A DNA stretch of 64,000 bases, from positions 1 through 64,000 of the forward strand of contig JAPFDT010000001.1 of the NCBI GenBank assembly GCA_026169815.1. Direction: 5' to 3'. The stretch is from Pseudogracilibacillus sp. Its GTDB lineage: Bacteria > Bacillota > Bacilli > Bacillales > Amphibacillaceae. Positions within the stretch are counted from its first letter, which is position 1; each line of letters starts with the position of its first letter. Shown piece by piece: positions 17,381-30,152 of the stretch. The translations under genes and the position numbers were made by a program. The notes beneath the pieces were generated by a model. It ran no database searches. It was given only the letters and a program-made list of their open reading frames with translations, and was not told the DNA's origin.

Positions 17381-19293
17381 TTAATTCGTCTCCTTTAAGG
17401 AATGAATAATCTGCTCTAACCTATTTTTAACACGTTCGTTAGTTTCAATCTGACGCTGCCATTGATTCTGTTTAGCCCTATTTAGTATTTCCTTAGTTCG
17501 GTCTAAGTGCTCCTCATGTTCATTTAAAAAACTCTTACTTGTACAGAAATTCGTACAAGTTAAACAAGCGTTAGCATGAGGACAAGGTCCTGCAATTACT
17601 GGTAAGCGACAGTAGCCGTTAGGAAGAGCTTGTGCATTGATATTCTTTTTAAACCATTGAAGATCTGTATTGTCAGCTTCACTATTATCTTCGCTTAACT
17701 CCAGAATGCTTCCGTTATTCGTCACCAAAGTCTCCTTGAATTTTGTGAACTCTTTTTTTAGAGTTTCATCAAAGATATGAGCATACCTTGCGGTCATTTC
17801 TGGTGATTCGTGACCTAAAAACTTTTGAACAATATGCTGTGGCACTCCGTTGTTTATCATTCTAGTACCAACAGTATGCCGAAAGGCATGAGCATGAAAT
17901 CGAAAAATTTCTCCCTTATTATCCGTTATCTTTTCTTCATAAGCTAATTCATTTAATTTCACTCTAAAGGTATCCTGCTTTAATGGAGAGCCGTCTTTTC
18001 TTGGAAATAAATACTCACAGCCATTATCAAAGTCATCAGCTACCCTTTGTTCCTGAACGAGTATCAATGCAGCAATTTCTTTAGATATGGGAATGATATG
18101 TTCTTTTTTCATTTTCCACTGATAATACTTCAAGAAGCAATCCCCTTCTTTATCCGTAATAACACTACCTTTTTTCAACGTACAAAGTTCACTGATACGC
18201 ATTCCGCATTCTTGAAGTACCATAACCATAGTAGCTATATAAGGTTCTAATTTATCTAATTTCCCGTTTAATTGTTCAAGTACATGTTCATCAATATAAC
18301 GTGGTTGTGCCTTCGGCACTTTAGGATAATCTTCTTGAAAGATAAGGATCTTAGAAGGAGAATCATTCCATTCAAACCTTTGAATAGTAGAGAAAAAACA
18401 TCTAAAGTAGATATTCGTCCAGTTACCGTACTTGGTTTTAAACCTTTTAAATTAATTTCATTTAAATATTGCTCAACTTCTTTTCTAGTTAATTGATGAA
18501 TCCTTCGTATACCTTTACAATTTTTGTTTATAAAATTAAAAAACTCTTTTAATCTTGATGCTGTATCAACAACATGAGAAAAGCTACGTGTATTTAACAT
18601 TAATTTACAATACCGCTTAACTAATTCTTTAAAATAATCATTTTCAAACCCCTTGAAATTGATTGTGTATTCATAGGATGTTGGATTTACCTTATCTTCC
18701 GATAATGAAAGTTTTCTTCGATTCCAAACATCTTTCTCCCATTCTTCGCCGTCAAAATAGAAATCCTCATAGAACTCCATAAACTGTTTAAGATTAGTAA
18801 CGTAGTAGGAGTTCGCATATACAGGAATTTTTTTTTGATTTATATCAAGCTTGTAATTTGTAGTCGTAGTTTTTACACCTTGTTCTGCTAAGTAAGTTCG
18901 GTATTCCGTCAAAGCTTTTTTTATAGGTACGTCAGTTATAGATCTAATGTCAGGATATTTTAAATTTAAAAATCCCAACATTCGGCTTATCACTGTTCCT
19001 TTTCTAATCCAAACAGATTTTGCATTCCAAGTTCCATTATTTAAGTGAACATAATAAAAATATTTTAATTCTGTTTTTAACCAGATGTTTTCTACTTTAT
19101 CAAAGTTTACCCAACGATTTTTTAACGAAGGATTCTTACTTAACTCTATCGCACTAGGATGTGGGCAGATTCTTATATCCCATCTATCTGCTGCCCAAAA
19201 CCCTTGTAAGACACTAGTCATATCCGCTATTTTTTTATTAATCTCTGTGCTAGTGACAAGCTTTCGATTTGTTGCAACGCTTGGAAATTTCAT
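17381..19293 (-). pseudogene. tnpB: Tn554-family transposase B (tyrosine recombinase), split by a -1 shift in a homopolymer
   Basis: Two overlapping ORFs (18268-19293 and 17381-18319); frames join as ...[45 protein letters not shown]... if one T is added at 18393-18398. Catalytic [36 protein letters not shown] is present. Confidence 0.88.
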
Positions 19294-19295
19294 TT

Positions 19296-20381
19296 CTATT
19301 TTTCTCTCCCTTGTAGATACGCTTTATATTCATCTTTCATATCTTGATCTGAAAGATGAACGTACGTATCAAGTGTTGTTTGTACATGTGCATGACCTAA
19401 CCTTTTTTGTACGTAAGCAGCATCCCATCCACTTCTAATGAGTTCAGTGGCATGCGTATGACGTAACATATGGGCAGTGAAGGTAATCCCTGTCCGTTTT
19501 ACCAATCGCCTAATAAGGTCTAATACACTTTGGTATTTTAAAGGTTTCCCAAAATAAGATTCTTTGAGATTTATAAATATATAATCATGCTCTAAATCTT
19601 CTCCATATTCATGAACTAAATAATCGGTATATAAGGCCATTAATTCCTTGCTAACATCGATTGTTCGTTCTTTTCTAAGCTTAATATAAGCCCCGTTTCC
19701 ATTATGATCTCTTGGTGTGATATTAATCAGATTATCCCAAGGAGAAATATCTTCGATACGAAGAGATAATACCTCCCCAACCCGAAGTCCTCCTTCATAC
19801 ATAAGCATAATAAGCAGCTTATCTCTTTTTGTATGACATGCATCAATTATTGCTTTAACTTGTTTGTGTTCTAATACTTGTACAAGTTTCTTTTTGATCC
19901 TAAGCTTTAAAATATTTTTTTGATAAGATTTTCCTTTAGAAATATGGTGAAGAAATCCCTTGAAATTTCTTCCCCTTGCTTCTTTAGTCATATCTATAGC
20001 TTTAAAATCTCCTGTACGATTTAAATACTCTAAGAAACTAGTTACAGCATTAAGTATGGCATTAACAGATGTTTCTTCTCTTTTAGCCTTCTTTGGTTTT
20101 AAATCTATTACCTTTACATCCCCCGTCGGATTTCTTAACCATCCCACAAAGTTTGACATTTCCTCAAATTTTAAGTCTTCTAATTCAATTCCTCTCTGGC
20201 TCATAAATTCATAGAATAGCTTAAGATGGTAACAATATGTTTTAATCGTATTCGGTGCTTTTCCCGTATTATCCAAGTATTTTATGTATCTCTTAACCAG
20301 TTCTACCACTTCAAACTTTTTGTCTAGTAGTATGTATAATGGATATGGTTTTTCCTCCACAACTACTTTTTGAACTTTCAT
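19296..20381 (-). CDS. tnpA: Tn554-family transposase A (tyrosine recombinase)
   Basis: 361 aa; [62 protein letters not shown]. Confidence 0.95.
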
Positions 20382-22069: not shown

Positions 22070-22736
22070 TTTGTAAATTCATATCTAAAATATAGCAATA
22101 TACTGAATGCGATGTTACATTTTATGAATTGCTTGCTCTTGTTGATCACTACTAGCATCGAATAGCATCTTTAAATGAACAGACTAGCCGCTGTCCAATG
22201 CTGATTCGAAAATCCGTTGATTATTCGTTTTCACTTTATATGCTAAGGATATTGTGTTCTTCTGTCTTAATGTTCGATGAGCTATCAATTGCTTGATCAT
22301 CTAATTCATCACTATCTATTACTATTTCTACTTTGATGTTCAGTATCTTAAGATTTACTTGACACATCTTCTTCTACATTACCATATACAGAGAACCCCA
22401 ACACTATTGTAAATAATAAGAAACTAATAAAAGACATTCTTTTTAATATTTTTATCGTTACTTCTTCTACTTATGTAATTAACCTTTTTCTATAATTCAG
22501 ATTTTTAAAATTATCCACCTTACTTAATAATTAAATATATTGATAAATAATTCATAATATCTCTGCATTAAATATTTGTTTACCGTCTATTGATGTTGCT
22601 TTATCAGCAATTAGTTGAATAATAAACATCTTTTTATTGTGTACCTGCTAGTTGCTCTTCACCATACCTCTTTCGATATCTAGTCAATGAAACAGATTCA
22701 AATGTTTGGCACAAATCTACAATATCTTGTTATAAA

Positions 22737-22754
22737 ATGCCAATTTTTTGGCAT
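22737..22754. promoter_or_regulatory. Candidate activator (UAS) palindrome upstream of sigma-54 promoter
   Basis: ATGCCAA-TTTT-TTGGCAT, perfect 7-bp arms, about 50-70 bp upstream of the -24 element. Confidence 0.65.
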
Positions 22755-22805
22755 ATTTCTTCTTTCTAATGATATTAAACATTGTAATTACGCATTTTAT
22801 AAAGT

Positions 22806-22821
22806 TGGCATACAACTTGCA
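22806..22821 (+). promoter_or_regulatory. Sigma-54 (-24/-12) promoter
   Basis: TGGCATACAACTTGCA: GG and GC spacing exactly matches TGGCAC-N5-TTGCA. Confidence 0.85.
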
Positions 22822-22856
22822 TTAAATATAAGCAACAACAAAAAGGAGGAAATAAA

Positions 22857-23873
22857 ATGAAAGCAAAAGCAGCAGTAGTAAATGAGTTTAACGAAAAATT
22901 AGAGGTAAAAGAAGTAACAATAAGTAAGCCTGGACTAGGCGAAATTTTAGTGAAAATGGAGGCATGTGGGGTTTGTCATACAGACTTACACGCTGCACAA
23001 GGAGATTGGCCAGTTAAACCAAAACTTCCAGTTATACCTGGCCATGAAGGGGTAGGAATTGTAGAAGAAATCGGTGAAGGCGTAACATCGATTAAAGTTG
23101 GTGATCGTGTTGGAATTCCTTGGTTGTTTAAAGCATGTGGGGAATGTGAGTTTTGTCTAGCTGGAAAAGAAACACTTTGTATGGATCAATTAAATGGTGG
23201 TTACTCTGCGGATGGAGCTTTCTCTGAATATTGTGTTGCCTCTGCTGATTATGTGGCACGTATCCCAGAAAATGTTGATTCTGTTGAAATAGCACCAATT
23301 TTATGTGCTGGAGTAACAACATATAAAGCATTAAAAATATCTGGAGCTAAACCAGGTGATTGGGTAGCCATTTATGGAATTGGTGGCCTTGGACACGTCG
23401 CTTTACAGTATGCTAAAGCTATGGGATTCAAAGTCGTTGCCGTCGATATACAGGATGATAAATTAACATTAGCAAAAGAATTAGGTGCTGACTTAACGAT
23501 AAATGGTAAAAACACGGATCCAGTAGAGAAAATCAAAGAGGAAACAGGTGGGGTTCAATCTTCCATTAGTGTAGCAGTAACTAAAGTTGCATTTGAACAA
23601 GCATATCATTCCGTTAAACGAGGAGGATCTGTTGTATTGGTAGGATTACCAAATGATGAGATTCCTGTTCCAATCTTTGATACCGTATTAAACGGTGTAA
23701 GTGTAAAAGGTTCAATAGTTGGAACTAGAAAAGACATGCAGGAAGCATTACAATTTGCAGCAGATGGTAAAGTAAAAGCAATCGTATCAACTGCTAAGCT
23801 CGAGAACATTAACGATGTATTAAATGACATGGTACACGGAAAAATTAATGGACGTGTTGTATTAGAATTTTAA
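22857..23873 (+). CDS. Zinc-dependent alcohol dehydrogenase (AdhP/AdhT type)
   Basis: 338 aa; [30 protein letters not shown], zinc-binding [45 protein letters not shown]. Confidence 0.94.
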
Positions 23874-24032
23874 GTTGTTGTTACGTAAATATTTAAAAAT
23901 GCAATCTAGAAAAAGTATCTGTGCGTAACATTCTATCAGCTACAAATCCTAATGACCTAATGACAACAAGAAAATAAGATATAATGAGCATCTTCAAAAA
24001 CTAAAAAAATGTTAGCGTTACCAATCAACATC

Positions 24033-24062
24033 AAGGAGAAGTAACATTACTTCTCCTCTAAA
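24033..24062 (+). terminator. Hairpin between adh and aldehyde dehydrogenase genes
   Basis: AAGGAGAAGTAACATTACTTCTCCTCTAAATT. Confidence 0.6.
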
Positions 24063-24091: not shown

Positions 24092-25609
24092 ATGATTTAC
24101 GAACAACCAGGACATGTTAATGCAGTAGTACAATTTAAAAAACGCTATGATAATTATATTAATGGTAAATGGACACCTCCTGTAAAAGGAAATTATTTTG
24201 ATAATCCTACGCCTGTTACGGGAGAGTCTTTTTGTGAAGTTGCAAGATCGACAAAAGAAGATATTGAACTTGCATTAGATGCTGCACACATGGCAAAAGA
24301 TGCTTGGGGTAAAACATCTCCTACTGAGAGAGCAAATATTTTATTGAAAATCGCTAATCGAATGGAAGCAAATTTAGAAAAATTAGCGGTCGCTGAAACA
24401 TGGGATAATGGGAAAGCAGTACGAGAAACATTGAATGCAGATATTCCACTAGCCATCGATCACTTCCGATATTTTGCAAGTGCAATTCGTACGCAAGAAG
24501 GAACGTTAAGTCAAATTGATAACGATACTGTAGCATATCATTTCAATGAACCATTAGGTGTCGTTGGTCAAATTATTCCATGGAACTTTCCATTATTAAT
24601 GGCAACATGGAAATTAGCTCCGGCACTCGCTGCTGGAAATTGTATCGTATTAAAACCAGCTGAACAAACACCGGCATCTATTATGGTCTTAATAGAATTA
24701 ATCGAAGACCTCTTACCTAATGGTGTATTAAACGTTGTAAATGGATTCGGTGTAGAAGCTGGTAAACCATTAGCTTCCAACCCAAGGATTCAGAAAATTG
24801 CTTTTACAGGAGAAACGACTACTGGACGTTTAATTATGCAATATGCATCGGAAAACATTATTCCTGTCACCTTAGAATTAGGTGGGAAATCTCCAAATAT
24901 TTTCTTTAAAGATATCATGGAAAAGGATGACGAATTTTTAGATAAGGCAATTGAAGGTTTCGTCATGTTTGCACTTAACCAAGGAGAAGTATGCACATGT
25001 CCATCCCGAGCTTTAATTGACACATCCATTTATGATGACTTTATAGAAAGAGCCATTAAACGTGTAAACATGATTAAAACTGGTAATCCATTAGATACGG
25101 ATACCATGATGGGAGCCCAAGCTTCAACAGAACAAATGGAAAAAATCAAATCTTACTTGGACATCGGTAAGCAAGAAGGTGCTGAATGTTTAACAGGAGG
25201 AGATATCAATCAAATTGATGGACTAGAAAATGGTTATTACATTAAACCTACCGTGTTTAAAGGTCATAATAAGATGAGAGTTTTCCAAGAGGAAATTTTT
25301 GGTCCGGTTGTATCTGTAGCAAAGTTTGAATCTGATGAAGAAGCATTAGAAATTGCTAATGATACTTTATACGGTCTAGGAGCCGGAGTATGGTCGCGTG
25401 AAATAAATAAAGCATATCGTTTTGGTCGCAATATTCAAGCTGGACGGGTTTGGACAAATTGTTATCATGCATATCCTGCTCATGCAGCATTCGGTGGCTA
25501 CAAACAATCAGGTATTGGCCGCGAAAACCATTTAATGATGTTAAGTCATTATCAACAAACGAAAAACTTACTCGTTAGTTACGCAGATGAAAAACAAGGA
25601 TTCTTTTAA
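24092..25609 (+). CDS. NAD-dependent aldehyde dehydrogenase (acetaldehyde dehydrogenase-like)
   Basis: 505 aa; [52 protein letters not shown] catalytic Cys. Confidence 0.94.
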
Positions 25610-25718
25610 ACTTTATTCTCAATCATTGTCTTGCATGAAATAGAATGAACGTCATTACTGTTACACAAAGTTTCATCATGTATTTGACTTTCTATCCTGG
25701 TAAGCAGTAATGATACTT

Positions 25719-27224
25719 TTACTGCTTACCTTTCTCTTTTAATAAATAACGCAACCGTCGATCTGTAATTTGTAACCGTTGTGCCGCTTCTTTACGATTA
25801 CCAATTGTATGTTGTAGTGTCTTTTCAATGTATGCACTGCCAATCATTTTCTCCAAGTTCTTTACACGCTCAAGAACCTCTTCTAATGGAACTATCGTGT
25901 CCTGCTTCCATATCGTCATTATTTCCTCTAACCATAATTCCATAAACTCATCGAAGTTTGGCGTAGTTTCCATCTGTTTTTGGCTATTGTTTCCTTTTAG
26001 TTCTTCGCTTTGGGAAAAATATGCTATATTATTTTCTGCATCATAGTCTCTTAGTAACTTAGGTAAATGTGCACTAGTAATGACAGTTTCATTTACATCC
26101 ATGAGTGATGTAGCACGTTTTATCATATTTGATAATTCACGAACATTACCTGGCCAATTGTAATTTTCCAATATTTCTATCGCCTGTTGTTGAAAAGTGA
26201 AAGATTCTTTATTTTTTTCCATCATGTGCTGTGCAATTGTCATAATATCACGCTTTCGTTCTCTTAATGAAGGAATGTGTAAATTGACAACATCAAGTCT
26301 GTACAATAAATCTTCCCTAAAACATCCCCGTTTTACTGCTTTACGTAGTTCAACATTCGTTGCAGAAATTATACGTGTATTGGTTTTACGTATCTCTTCC
26401 CCACCCACTCGCATAAAATCTCCCGTTTCTAATACTCGTAATAATTTAACTTGTGTGGCAGGAGAAGCTTCTCCAATTTCATCTAAAAATAATGTTCCTT
26501 TACTAGCAATTTCAAATACACCACGCCGTTCCTTCACTGCACCCGTAAATGCACCCTTTTCATGACCAAATAATTCACTTTCTAACATGGATTCCGACAA
26601 GGCGCCACAATTAATTCTAATGTATGGTTGTTCACTACGGTTACTTGCTAAATGGATGAAGTGTGCTAATAACTCTTTGCCTGTTCCTGTTTCTCCTTGG
26701 ATTAACACATTAATATTTTTACTAGCAATTTTAAAAGATAATGTTAACAATCGCTTAAGATTTTCTTCTTTTCCAAAAATAATCCCGCTCATTTGCGCTA
26801 ATTCTAAAATATTATTTTCAGCAGTAGTTACTTCATTTTTTAACAAATGATCAATCATCTTTTCAATTTCTTCTATTTCAGCAAACGGTTTTTCAATATA
26901 ATCACTTGCTCCTAATCTAATCGCTTCAACTGCTGTCTTTACAGTACTATATCCCGTCATAATAACTACTTTACATGCTGGCATTTTTTCATGCAATTTT
27001 TGCAGTAAGTGAAGTCCGTTTGTGTCAGGTAATTTGACATCTAGCATCGCCAACCGAAAAGCACGTCCTTCACATAACATATCAAAGTCTGCACCACTAT
27101 AGCCAACCGTCACATTGTGGCCGCGTTCTTCTAATAAGTATTTTAAAAAAGTCCCTACTTCTTTTTCATCATCAATAATTAAGATATTTGCCATTGCTTC
27201 CTCCATTATCCACTTTCTATACAT
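25719..27224 (-). CDS. Sigma-54-dependent response regulator (NtrC family: receiver, AAA+, Fis-type HTH)
   Basis: 501 aa; REC domain (DDEKEV..AMLDVKLPDTNG..KPFAE), GETGTGKELLAHFIH, GAFTGA, FLDEIGEASPATQVKLLRVLE, C-terminal HTH TIGNRKEAAQRLQITDRRLRYLLKEK. Confidence 0.95.
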   Translation of the reverse strand: MYRKWIMEEAMANILIIDDEKEVGTFLKYLLEERGHNVTVGYSGADFDMLCEGRAFRLAMLDVKLPDTNGLHLLQKLHEKMPACKVVIMTGYSTVKTAVEAIRLGASDYIEKPFAEIEEIEKMIDHLLKNEVTTAENNILELAQMSGIIFGKEENLKRLLTLSFKIASKNINVLIQGETGTGKELLAHFIHLASNRSEQPYIRINCGALSESMLESELFGHEKGAFTGAVKERRGVFEIASKGTLFLDEIGEASPATQVKLLRVLETGDFMRVGGEEIRKTNTRIISATNVELRKAVKRGCFREDLLYRLDVVNLHIPSLRERKRDIMTIAQHMMEKNKESFTFQQQAIEILENYNWPGNVRELSNMIKRATSLMDVNETVITSAHLPKLLRDYDAENNIAYFSQSEELKGNNSQKQMETTPNFDEFMELWLEEIMTIWKQDTIVPLEEVLERVKNLEKMIGSAYIEKTLQHTIGNRKEAAQRLQITDRRLRYLLKEKGKQ

Positions 27225-28852
27225 AACGGGAGCTGTAATGTAAATGAACTCCCCTTACCAGGCGTACTTTCTACAATGATGTTACCTTGATGCGATTCGG
27301 CAATCCCCAAACTAACCGATAATCCTAGACCTGTTCCTTTTCGAACTTGTTTCGTTGTAAAAAATGGATCAAAAATATTACCTCTTTCCTCATCACTCAT
27401 TCCTATACCATTATCACGAACTGTGACATAAACAAATTCCTCACATTGACTTGATTCAATTTTAATTTGCTTAGTTGATTCACGCTCTTTCAGTGCATCT
27501 TTAGCATTTAACATTAAATTAATTATTACTTGTTCAATTTGCTGGGCACTACCGTCGATTAGTGGCATCTGCTCAGCCAAATTCAATTCAACATAAATTT
27601 GGTCTTGCTCCATTTGATATCCAACCATACCTAACACATTATGAATTGCTTCATTTATCGAACATCGCTCAAATAAATATTCATCTTGTCTAGAAAAGGT
27701 TAATAGGTTTCGAATAATATTTTGACTTCTCCTTCCACACTCATAAATATCACGTAACAAATGAATTGTTGGACTATCCTCTTGTTCTTTTCGTAATAAT
27801 ATTTGTGAATTTCCTAAGATAGCTGTTAATGGATTATTTAATTCATGAGCAACACCGGCAGCCATCTCACCGATTGCAGCAAGCTTACTAGACTGCATAA
27901 TTTGCACTTCATATTGTCGTTTATTGGTAATATCGCGAACATAAACAATAATATGGAGTACTTTTCCCCTTTCGTGAAATACGGGATATGCATATACTTC
28001 ACAATATGCTTTATTAAACAGTTTCAACTCTTCATTAATTGCATTTTGCTCTTTTATACACCGTTCCATAATAGTTTCGGAAGGTACATTTTCTCCATAT
28101 AAAACATCATGTAAATTTAGATTATTTTCTTGTAAATGAAAAAAATCCTTCGCTGTTTCATTCGCTTGTACAATGTTCCCCTCTAAATCAACGAGAAAGA
28201 TTGGATCTTTTACTGCTGTAAATGTTTGCTCCCATTCATTTTTCTTTTGTAATACCTCCCTATACAGGCGAACATTTTCATGTGAAACGGCAATTTGATC
28301 TGTTAACTGTTGGAAGAAACGTAAATCATCAGCATCATATTCGATAACTTCATTACTGCCTAAACTAAATAATCCTATTATTTTCCCTTGTACATACATT
28401 GGAAATATAATCACCTGTCTTAATTCCAAATGTTTAAAAGGTTCGAGTTCAATATACGAATCAGTTTTATTTAAAATATAATTACGATATTTATTATCTT
28501 GTACCACTTCCCAATACAAGGAGTGGTCTTGTTGAAGGATTGGACCAATTTGTTGGTAACTATCGACTTTGGGATAAATTGTGTGAACATGTAATTGTTC
28601 TGATTCATAATGTAATTCAAATAATCCTAAATAACTAAATGAAAAGAATGGTCTCATTTTTTTCAAAATAAATTGCAATATATCATTCATTGACATTTCA
28701 ATATTAAAACCTTTCATTACATCATTAATAATTTCCAATTGAATGTTTTTCTTTTTCATTTCTGTCACGGAATTTTTTAATGCGACATAATAATTTCGTT
28801 TAGATGATTGCACACCTACGAGTCGATCAATCATCGCCTGTCTATTAGTCAT
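27206..28852 (-). CDS. Sensor histidine kinase with GAF and PAS domains
   Basis: 548 aa; GAF-like N-terminus, PAS (FLVDLEGNIVQANETAKDFF), H-box GEMAAGVAHELNNPLTAILGN, G-boxes GIGMSDEERGNIFDPFFTTK. Confidence 0.93.
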   Translation of the reverse strand: MTNRQAMIDRLVGVQSSKRNYYVALKNSVTEMKKKNIQLEIINDVMKGFNIEMSMNDILQFILKKMRPFFSFSYLGLFELHYESEQLHVHTIYPKVDSYQQIGPILQQDHSLYWEVVQDNKYRNYILNKTDSYIELEPFKHLELRQVIIFPMYVQGKIIGLFSLGSNEVIEYDADDLRFFQQLTDQIAVSHENVRLYREVLQKKNEWEQTFTAVKDPIFLVDLEGNIVQANETAKDFFHLQENNLNLHDVLYGENVPSETIMERCIKEQNAINEELKLFNKAYCEVYAYPVFHERGKVLHIIVYVRDITNKRQYEVQIMQSSKLAAIGEMAAGVAHELNNPLTAILGNSQILLRKEQEDSPTIHLLRDIYECGRRSQNIIRNLLTFSRQDEYLFERCSINEAIHNVLGMVGYQMEQDQIYVELNLAEQMPLIDGSAQQIEQVIINLMLNAKDALKERESTKQIKIESSQCEEFVYVTVRDNGIGMSDEERGNIFDPFFTTKQVRKGTGLGLSVSLGIAESHQGNIIVESTPGKGSSFTLQLPLCIESG

Positions 28853-28994: not shown

Positions 28995-30152
28995 TTATAG
29001 TGCTTGGATAAATAATCGTTCAATATCTTGCTCTGTTATATCCCGAGGATTTGTAATCATACATGCATCCTCAATCGCATCTGCACTAATTTTTTTAGCA
29101 TCTTGTTTTGTTAACCCTAACTCACTTAGCCGTTTTGGTGCACCGATATCATGTGCTAATTGTTTTACTAATTCTACAGCATCTTGTCCTGAATCACTCC
29201 ATCTTTTTTCTTCTCCTGAAAGTAATGTTACAATCCGTGCAAATTTATCTGGTGCCGAAATATAATTAAATTCCATCACATGCGGTAATAGTATTCCATT
29301 TACATCCCCATGAGGTAATAAAAATTTCCCACCAATTGCGTGGCTCATTCCGTGTACAGCACCTAAAATAGCATTCGAAAAAGCTAAACCAGCCTGAAGA
29401 CTTGCCATCGCCATATTTTTCTTCGCCTCTTCGTTTAGTTTTGATGCGACGGATTGACGTAAATATTTTGCAACTAACAATATAGCGTTTTCTGCATGTA
29501 CATCCGTTAATGGTGTCGCCGCTATACTTAAATACGATTCAATACCATGTGTTAACACATCTAACCCTGTTGTCGCTGTTAATAAGGCACTTTTTGTACG
29601 CAATGTTTCTGGATCTATAATAGCAATATCAGGAACTAGTGACTTGGAAATAATCGTTAGTTTCTTGTTATGTTCCGAATCTAATATAATAGAAAACTGA
29701 GAGACCTCCGAACCAGAACCAGCCGTAGTAGCTACCATAACAAGTGGTGGTAACGGCATACTTATTTTGTCAACACCTTCATAGTCACCAATATCGCCAC
29801 CATTCGTTGCTAAAATTGCTATTGCTTTTGCTACATCTATTGCACTCCCACCACCAACACCGAGAATGGCATCACATTCTGCATTCAAATAATGAGCCAA
29901 CCCTTTTGTTACTTCAAAATCTTTCGGATTTGTTGTCAAATCTGAAAATACAGAATAACTTAAACCTACTTCATGACAACTTTGAACAACTAATTCTAAC
30001 CAACCAGATTCAACGACACCTGGATCTGTGACAATTAGTATTTTTTGAGCCCCAAGACGAATACAACTCTCGCCTACCTGTTTTATGGAACCGTTTCCAA
30101 ATATAACTTCAGGCATAACAAATTTATATACTTCCATGAAGATCCCCCACAT
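28995..30152 (-). CDS. Iron-containing (group III) alcohol dehydrogenase
   Basis: 385 aa; AILGVGGGSAIDVAKAIA, TTAGSGSEVSQF, ILGAVHGMSHAIGG. Confidence 0.93.
   Translation of the reverse strand: MWGIFMEVYKFVMPEVIFGNGSIKQVGESCIRLGAQKILIVTDPGVVESGWLELVVQSCHEVGLSYSVFSDLTTNPKDFEVTKGLAHYLNAECDAILGVGGGSAIDVAKAIAILATNGGDIGDYEGVDKISMPLPPLVMVATTAGSGSEVSQFSIILDSEHNKKLTIISKSLVPDIAIIDPETLRTKSALLTATTGLDVLTHGIESYLSIAATPLTDVHAENAILLVAKYLRQSVASKLNEEAKKNMAMASLQAGLAFSNAILGAVHGMSHAIGGKFLLPHGDVNGILLPHVMEFNYISAPDKFARIVTLLSGEEKRWSDSGQDAVELVKQLAHDIGAPKRLSELGLTKQDAKKISADAIEDACMITNPRDITEQDIERLFIQAL

Follow-up and report, generated by a model that had tools for sequence, protein, structure and literature searches.

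A 64,000-nt stretch of the Pseudogracilibacillus sp. genome (contig JAPFDT010000001.1, positions 1-64,000, referred to as the window) carries an alcohol dehydrogenase gene, adhP, preceded by a sigma-54 promoter and a palindromic enhancer candidate. Genes for an NtrC-type response regulator, a histidine kinase and an iron-containing alcohol dehydrogenase (Fe-dehydrogenase) face it in a convergent unit. The features, with coordinates and strand, are as follows.

22697..22710, no strand: weak enhancer-like copy TTCAAATGTTTGGC, 8/10 specified positions, with its centre 42 bp, or 4 helical turns, upstream of the main palindrome.
22718..22731, no strand: possible very weak middle copy TACAATATCTTGTT, 6/10 positions, centred exactly 21 bp before the main palindrome.
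22737-22754, no strand: main enhancer (upstream activating sequence) ATGCCAA-TTTT-TTGGCAT, with core GCCAATTTTTTGGC at 22739-22752, assigned from comparative conservation.
22806-22821, +: sigma-54 promoter, -24/-12 elements TGGCATACAACTTGCA, from direct reading and strict pattern matches.
22857..23873, +: adhP, AdhP-type zinc alcohol dehydrogenase (NCBIfam AdhP; Pfam ADH_N and ADH_zinc_N; relatives of solved structure, e.g. 1rjw).
24031..24056, +: hairpin GGAGAAGTAA-CA-TTACTTCTCC, a strong inverted repeat between adhP and exaC.
24092..25609, +: exaC, acetaldehyde dehydrogenase of the ExaC type (NCBIfam ExaC), probable second gene of the target unit.
25699..25730, no strand: terminator-like hairpin shared by the convergent units (terminator scan).
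25719..27194, -: NtrC-type response regulator with receiver, sigma-54 AAA+ domain with GAFTGA, and Fis-type helix-turn-helix (Pfam scan, alignment of relatives).
27206..28852, -: histidine kinase with N-terminal helix, GAF, PAS, HisKA and HATPase domains (Pfam scan, structure prediction).
28775..28822, -: N-terminal motif of the kinase, LVGVQSSKRNYYVALK (residues 11-26), on which the Fe-dehydrogenase may dock.
28995..30152, -: Fe-dehydrogenase, an iron-containing alcohol dehydrogenase encoded with the kinase and closest to ErcA in the Pfam/NCBIfam scan.

An earlier note on this DNA had reported the exactly spaced sigma-54 promoter and the palindrome ahead of an alcohol dehydrogenase gene, and a receiver-bearing NtrC-type regulator with its histidine kinase nearby (25719-28852). 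Positions and domains were confirmed throughout. The note missed the ExaC-type gene behind adhP and also the Fe-dehydrogenase gene, which together with the kinase motif is the most interesting component of the locus.

In the promoter, TGGCATACAACTTGCA read directly places GG at -25/-24 and GC at -13/-12, giving the GG-N10-GC arrangement with TGGCAY...TTGCW that identifies sigma-54 promoters and a predicted start at ~22832. The adhP ATG lies 35 bp beyond the end of this sequence and is preceded by a good ribosome-binding site (AGGAGG, 22844-22849). The window has two strict TGGCAY-N5-TTGCW matches, where shuffles lead one to expect 0.2, and the 3.0-Mb genome (59 contigs) has 15, compared with 3 for the reversed control. 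One RpoN is encoded in the genome. The product of adhP scores 427.1 bits against NF006940 (AdhP, cut-off 344) and that of exaC 980.3 bits against NF050026 (ExaC, cut-off 900). A scan of the region upstream of exaC found no sigma-54 site of its own.

The palindrome taken by itself is not significant, as perfect 7-bp inverted repeats are frequent in AT-rich DNA such as this; the window holds 61 of them (spacers 3-8 bp), and in 22 of these each arm has 3 or more G/C. What makes the site significant is that relatives conserve it. It is the sole strict TGCCRA-N4-TYGGCA match in the genome that adjoins a strict sigma-54 site. No further regulon target was found in the genome, where the only other perfect palindrome (C50:16617) is on a contig lacking a strict sigma-54 site.

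Conservation was assessed among 80 loci recovered with a profile built from 5 regulators. In every Bacillales-type locus that has adhP, except one (L090), a sigma-54 site precedes the gene, and such sites are only occasional and weak before Fe-dehydrogenase or aldehyde dehydrogenase genes. A de novo search for palindromic motifs in 44 adhP upstream regions returned TGCCGAAATTTCGGCA. Searched as the fixed pattern GCCRA-N4-TYGGC (at most 1 mismatch, within 200 bp upstream of the sigma-54 promoter), the site was present in 43 of the 44 Bacillales-type adhP loci and was perfect in 33, compared with a mean of 0.7 and a maximum of 4 in 200 shuffles. It was found before 5/70 Fe-dehydrogenase genes and 1/23 aldehyde dehydrogenase genes. 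The centre of the site tends to lie approximately 48, 59, 70, 80 or 90 bp from the promoter (47-49, 57-60, 68-70, 79-81 and 89-90), the helical phasing expected because a looping activator must face the polymerase. Many relatives carry extra enhancer copies, a second one being enriched at exactly 21 bp in their adhP upstream regions (z 5.4), and the site centres in the window (22703.5, 22724.5 and 22745.5) reproduce this spacing. The first two are weak, and the TACAATATCTTGTT copy taken singly is no different from chance.

Dependence on the regulator was examined in 80 upstream regions of adhP homologues, 43 from genomes with the regulator and 37 from genomes without. Promoter and site occurred together in 37/43 of the former and in 1/37 of the latter, which ties the regulator to the site without reliance on gene neighbourhood. 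Four of the 6 misses are second paralogues, one is a more distant copy (G300), and one (G478) combines a broken regulator reading frame with a degenerate site. A further genome, G249, has neither regulator nor enhancer and retains a sigma-54-like site. Promoter, site, phasing and the cross-genome link to the regulator are in this way established at the level of sequence comparison.

The regulator has the receiver, Sigma54_activat domain with GAFTGA and Fis helix-turn-helix of the NtrC type, a cognate HisKA kinase encoded beside it and, from the comparisons above, the phased enhancer palindromes typical of that type. The best NCBIfam models were ntrC (363.9 bits, cut-off 558.6) and AtoC (360.9 bits, cut-off 714), and neither cut-off was reached. 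The annotated open reading frame extends to 27224, but relatives begin at the position of MANILIIDDE (27194), so that the annotated start is probably 30 nt too early. Sigma-54 activators of Bacillus subtilis mostly lack receivers. Of 4 full-length activators encoded in the present genome, this is the only one with a receiver; by inspection, the others have PAS (two) or receptor-like (one) N-termini.

Taken together, these data strongly support, on comparative grounds, the proposal of the earlier note that the nearby kinase and NtrC-type regulator drive the promoter and palindrome ahead of adhP. The reading that this pair activates the sigma-54 promoter of adhP, and with it exaC, via the palindrome is given a probability of roughly 0.87. 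The parts that we infer are phosphotransfer, binding, the nature of the inducer and the transcription of exaC together with adhP. The kinase (27206-28852) would phosphorylate the regulator (25719-27194), and the phosphorylated form would bind the GCCRA-N4-TYGGC palindrome at 22737-22754, aided by the weaker copies at whole helical turns. Bound regulator would then remodel sigma-54 RNA polymerase at 22806-22821 and turn on adhP and exaC, whose products would convert a short-chain alcohol via the aldehyde to the acid, apparently acetate. Further and less certain, the Fe-dehydrogenase may form part of the sensor by docking on the N-terminal LTGVxSSKxxYYxELK helix of the kinase.

Several points weigh against this reading. 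The adhP and exaC genes are separated by 218 bp containing the hairpin, and exaC may therefore be transcribed differently from adhP. At 18.8 bits the window's palindrome belongs to the weaker examples of the motif, and the additional copies beside it are weak. In one genome (G316) promoter and site are present, but no regulator was found. The p-values for the phasing (Rayleigh p ~1e-10 to 1e-12, one site per genome) and for the regulator comparison (Fisher p 2e-15) overstate independence, because the loci have common ancestry and some upstream regions belong to both sets. The hairpin between adhP and exaC may be a partial terminator or a processing site. A similar one, GGAGAAGG/CCTTCTCC, lies at the same place in a relative (L059), which points to a conserved structure with a possible role in setting how much AdhP is made relative to ExaC.

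Two accounts of how the alcohol signal enters were considered. In the first, a catalytically competent Fe-dehydrogenase is the sensor, docking on the LTGVxSSKxxYYxELK helix and relaying alcohol or NADH turnover, and the helix is a portable docking element joined to at least 2 kinase classes: in Bacillota and Geobacteraceae to HisKA kinases with sigma-54 output, and in Actinomycetota to HisKA_3 kinases with non-sigma-54 output. This is advanced tentatively, at a shade below even odds. In the second, the kinase's own GAF and PAS domains detect alcohol, aldehyde or redox state and the Fe-dehydrogenase is a co-encoded catabolic enzyme, an account that is plausible and judged to fall somewhat short of an even chance. 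The presence of both domains speaks for direct sensing, as do kinases of the same family that occur without the dehydrogenase in Pelotomaculum/Desulfosporosinus-type loci. The expected metal ligands of the Fe-dehydrogenase (D198, H202, H267 and H281), invariant in 19 aligned sequences, likewise indicate that it may simply be an enzyme.

Against direct sensing stands the kinase motif, consensus L(T/V)GVxSSKxxYYxELK, which ranks with the most highly conserved segments of the sensory half and tracks the dehydrogenase. It is present in 65/65 loci with the Fe-dehydrogenase and in 3/9 without (p 5e-7), and two of those three are on contigs of <4.3 kb. A motif-first search of 398 genomes of the phylum fetched 32 regions, 22 with an Fe-dehydrogenase gene inside the fetched stretch, usually directly upstream. 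At least 2 of the other 10 have it just outside (compare L119 and L126), and 3 have neither dehydrogenase nor regulator, showing that the link is strong and not absolute. Two actinobacterial HisKA_3 kinases encoded beside the same dehydrogenase start with LTGLRSGKSSYYPQYR and LTGVRSGKGTFYPQFR and score 11-15 bits with the N-terminal profile, compared with ≤1.9 in 1000 shuffles. This sharing of the motif, seen in two sequences only, is suggestive. A similar dehydrogenase in Pseudomonas is needed for induction (PMC12997753), which also argues against direct sensing. AlphaFold2 (41 homologues) modelled the kinase as a helix at residues 2-12, a break at G13 and a helix at 14-48, followed by GAF, PAS and the kinase core. 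Confidence was low over residues 1-20, which would fit a segment that binds a partner. The Pfam scan detected no membrane domain in the kinase, and its best NCBIfam model was AtoS (257.4 bits, below the cut-off of 646).

The Fe-dehydrogenase is best matched by the ErcA model (NF041833), and its gene adjoins a histidine kinase gene, the context expected of ErcA. Orthology by the model was rejected, the score of 470.8 bits being below the cut-off of 550. All 19 relatives of the protein match the model, and another iron-containing alcohol dehydrogenase of the genome reaches 414.6 bits. In two Aneurinibacillus loci (L076 and L088), the Fe-dehydrogenase start is preceded at 28-29 bp by a perfect enhancer palindrome that has no sigma-54 site with it, and autoregulation is possible.

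Action of another of the genome's sigma-54 activators at the adhP promoter, whether a PAS type or the receptor-like one, would be compatible with the AAA+ domain and sigma-54 being common to all activators. It is considered very unlikely, as each of the three has its own strict sigma-54 site within ~2 kb and, from genome to genome, the palindrome goes together with the receiver-type regulator. The equally improbable reading of the palindrome as an intrinsic terminator or an unrelated repressor's operator, with adhP driven by a sigma-A promoter, draws on a terminator-like listing of 22737-22754 and a weak sigma-70-like match at 22748-22776, and was rejected because no plausible + strand gene end lies just upstream, sigma-70-like matches are no commoner than in shuffles, and phased, regulator-dependent conservation is not expected of a terminator.

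Among the relatives, the genes run Fe-dehydrogenase, kinase, regulator in approximately 45 Bacillales-type loci, most of which also have adhP and/or an aldehyde dehydrogenase gene alongside. They include Siminovitchia, Anoxybacillus, Geobacillus, Neobacillus, Peribacillus, Metabacillus, Shouchella, Domibacillus and Lysinibacillus. Geobacteraceae have the trio without adhP, and some Clostridia have kinase and regulator with no Fe-dehydrogenase. The regulator is carried by 48/397 genomes of the order, so the expectation in the earlier note that a kinase-driven sigma-54 alcohol regulon would be uncommon overstated its rarity, although in the window's own family only 5/159 genomes carry the regulator at ortholog level.

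Among the closest known systems is the ErcA/ErcS ethanol regulation of Pseudomonas, where ErcA is an alcohol dehydrogenase-like regulatory protein. In both, the genes for an iron-containing alcohol dehydrogenase and a histidine kinase are co-cistronic, and the cluster includes an ExaC-type aldehyde dehydrogenase gene. However, the Pseudomonas system has a hybrid membrane-associated kinase, a LuxR-type output regulator and pyrroloquinoline quinone (PQQ) dehydrogenases, whereas the window has a kinase without a membrane domain in the Pfam scan, an NtrC-type regulator with sigma-54, and zinc AdhP. Both Pseudomonas genes (yiaY/PP_2683) are required to induce short-chain alcohol oxidation, a dehydrogenase residue matters, and direct ErcA-ErcS contact was proposed by modelling; whether the kinase or the co-encoded dehydrogenase senses alcohol is stated there as unknown (PMC12997753). 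No Pseudomonas ErcA/ErcS-like pair turned up when plasmids were searched with the sequences of the dehydrogenase, kinase or kinase N-terminus. Plasmid loci related to Mycobacterium MnoS/MnoR have, like the window, an iron-containing alcohol dehydrogenase, a kinase with a similar N-terminal motif and a nearby regulator. MnoSR, encoded beside a putative propanediol dehydrogenase, is required for growth on methanol and propanediol (PMC11303327), and differs in its HisKA_3 kinase, non-sigma-54 output and methanol dehydrogenase target.

Clostridium AdhR/SigL likewise places sigma-54 and a dedicated activator before alcohol dehydrogenase genes (PMC6615313, PMC7017808), but the AdhR enhancer is TGT-N10-12-ACA (PMC6615313) rather than GCCRA-N4-TYGGC, and receiver-type activators make up only ~10% in Clostridiales (PMC6615313). 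Systems of the NtrB/NtrC and AtoS/AtoC type share the receiver-AAA+-Fis architecture and phased palindromic enhancers; the window proteins are far below their curated cut-offs and differ in regulon and sensor. A paper on adipate/butanediol in Geobacillus mentions an iron-containing dehydrogenase and a sigma-54 regulator in one cluster, possibly the one described here. No published description of the present two-component sigma-54 alcohol switch was found in the open-licence literature. Bacillales would gain a widespread switch of this kind with a defined enhancer. The kinase motif supplies exact residues to mutate in Gram-positive relatives that are tractable and non-pathogenic, making the sensing question raised for Pseudomonas (PMC12997753) testable, and the adhP promoter could serve as an alcohol biosensor in thermophiles such as Geobacillus and Anoxybacillus relatives.

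Further variation was seen among the loci. The activator of the closest relative (L009) reads GAFTSA, not GAFTGA, at the loop that contacts sigma-54. Four clostridial loci with neither Fe-dehydrogenase nor adhP (L103, L105, L115 and L131) carry the same enhancer and a sigma-54 promoter right after the regulator, preceding iron-sulfur/flavin oxidoreductase-like genes, i.e. the same regulator and site with a different regulon. In L347 and L351, motif proteins with two tandem LTGV-like repeats have no Fe-dehydrogenase or regulator nearby. By inspection, the Thermacetogenium-like loci L360 and L366 have a motif kinase and a sigma-54 regulator followed by genes for tungsten aldehyde oxidoreductase-like and hydrogenase/NuoEF-like subunits.

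Approximately 2.5 kb upstream of adhP in the window are three tyrosine-recombinase genes (17381-20381, - strand; 361, 341 and 312 aa). The 341- and 312-aa genes overlap and appear to be two parts of a single, longer recombinase gene interrupted by a frameshift, and the layout is one that we take to resemble a Tn554-type tnpA/tnpB pair.
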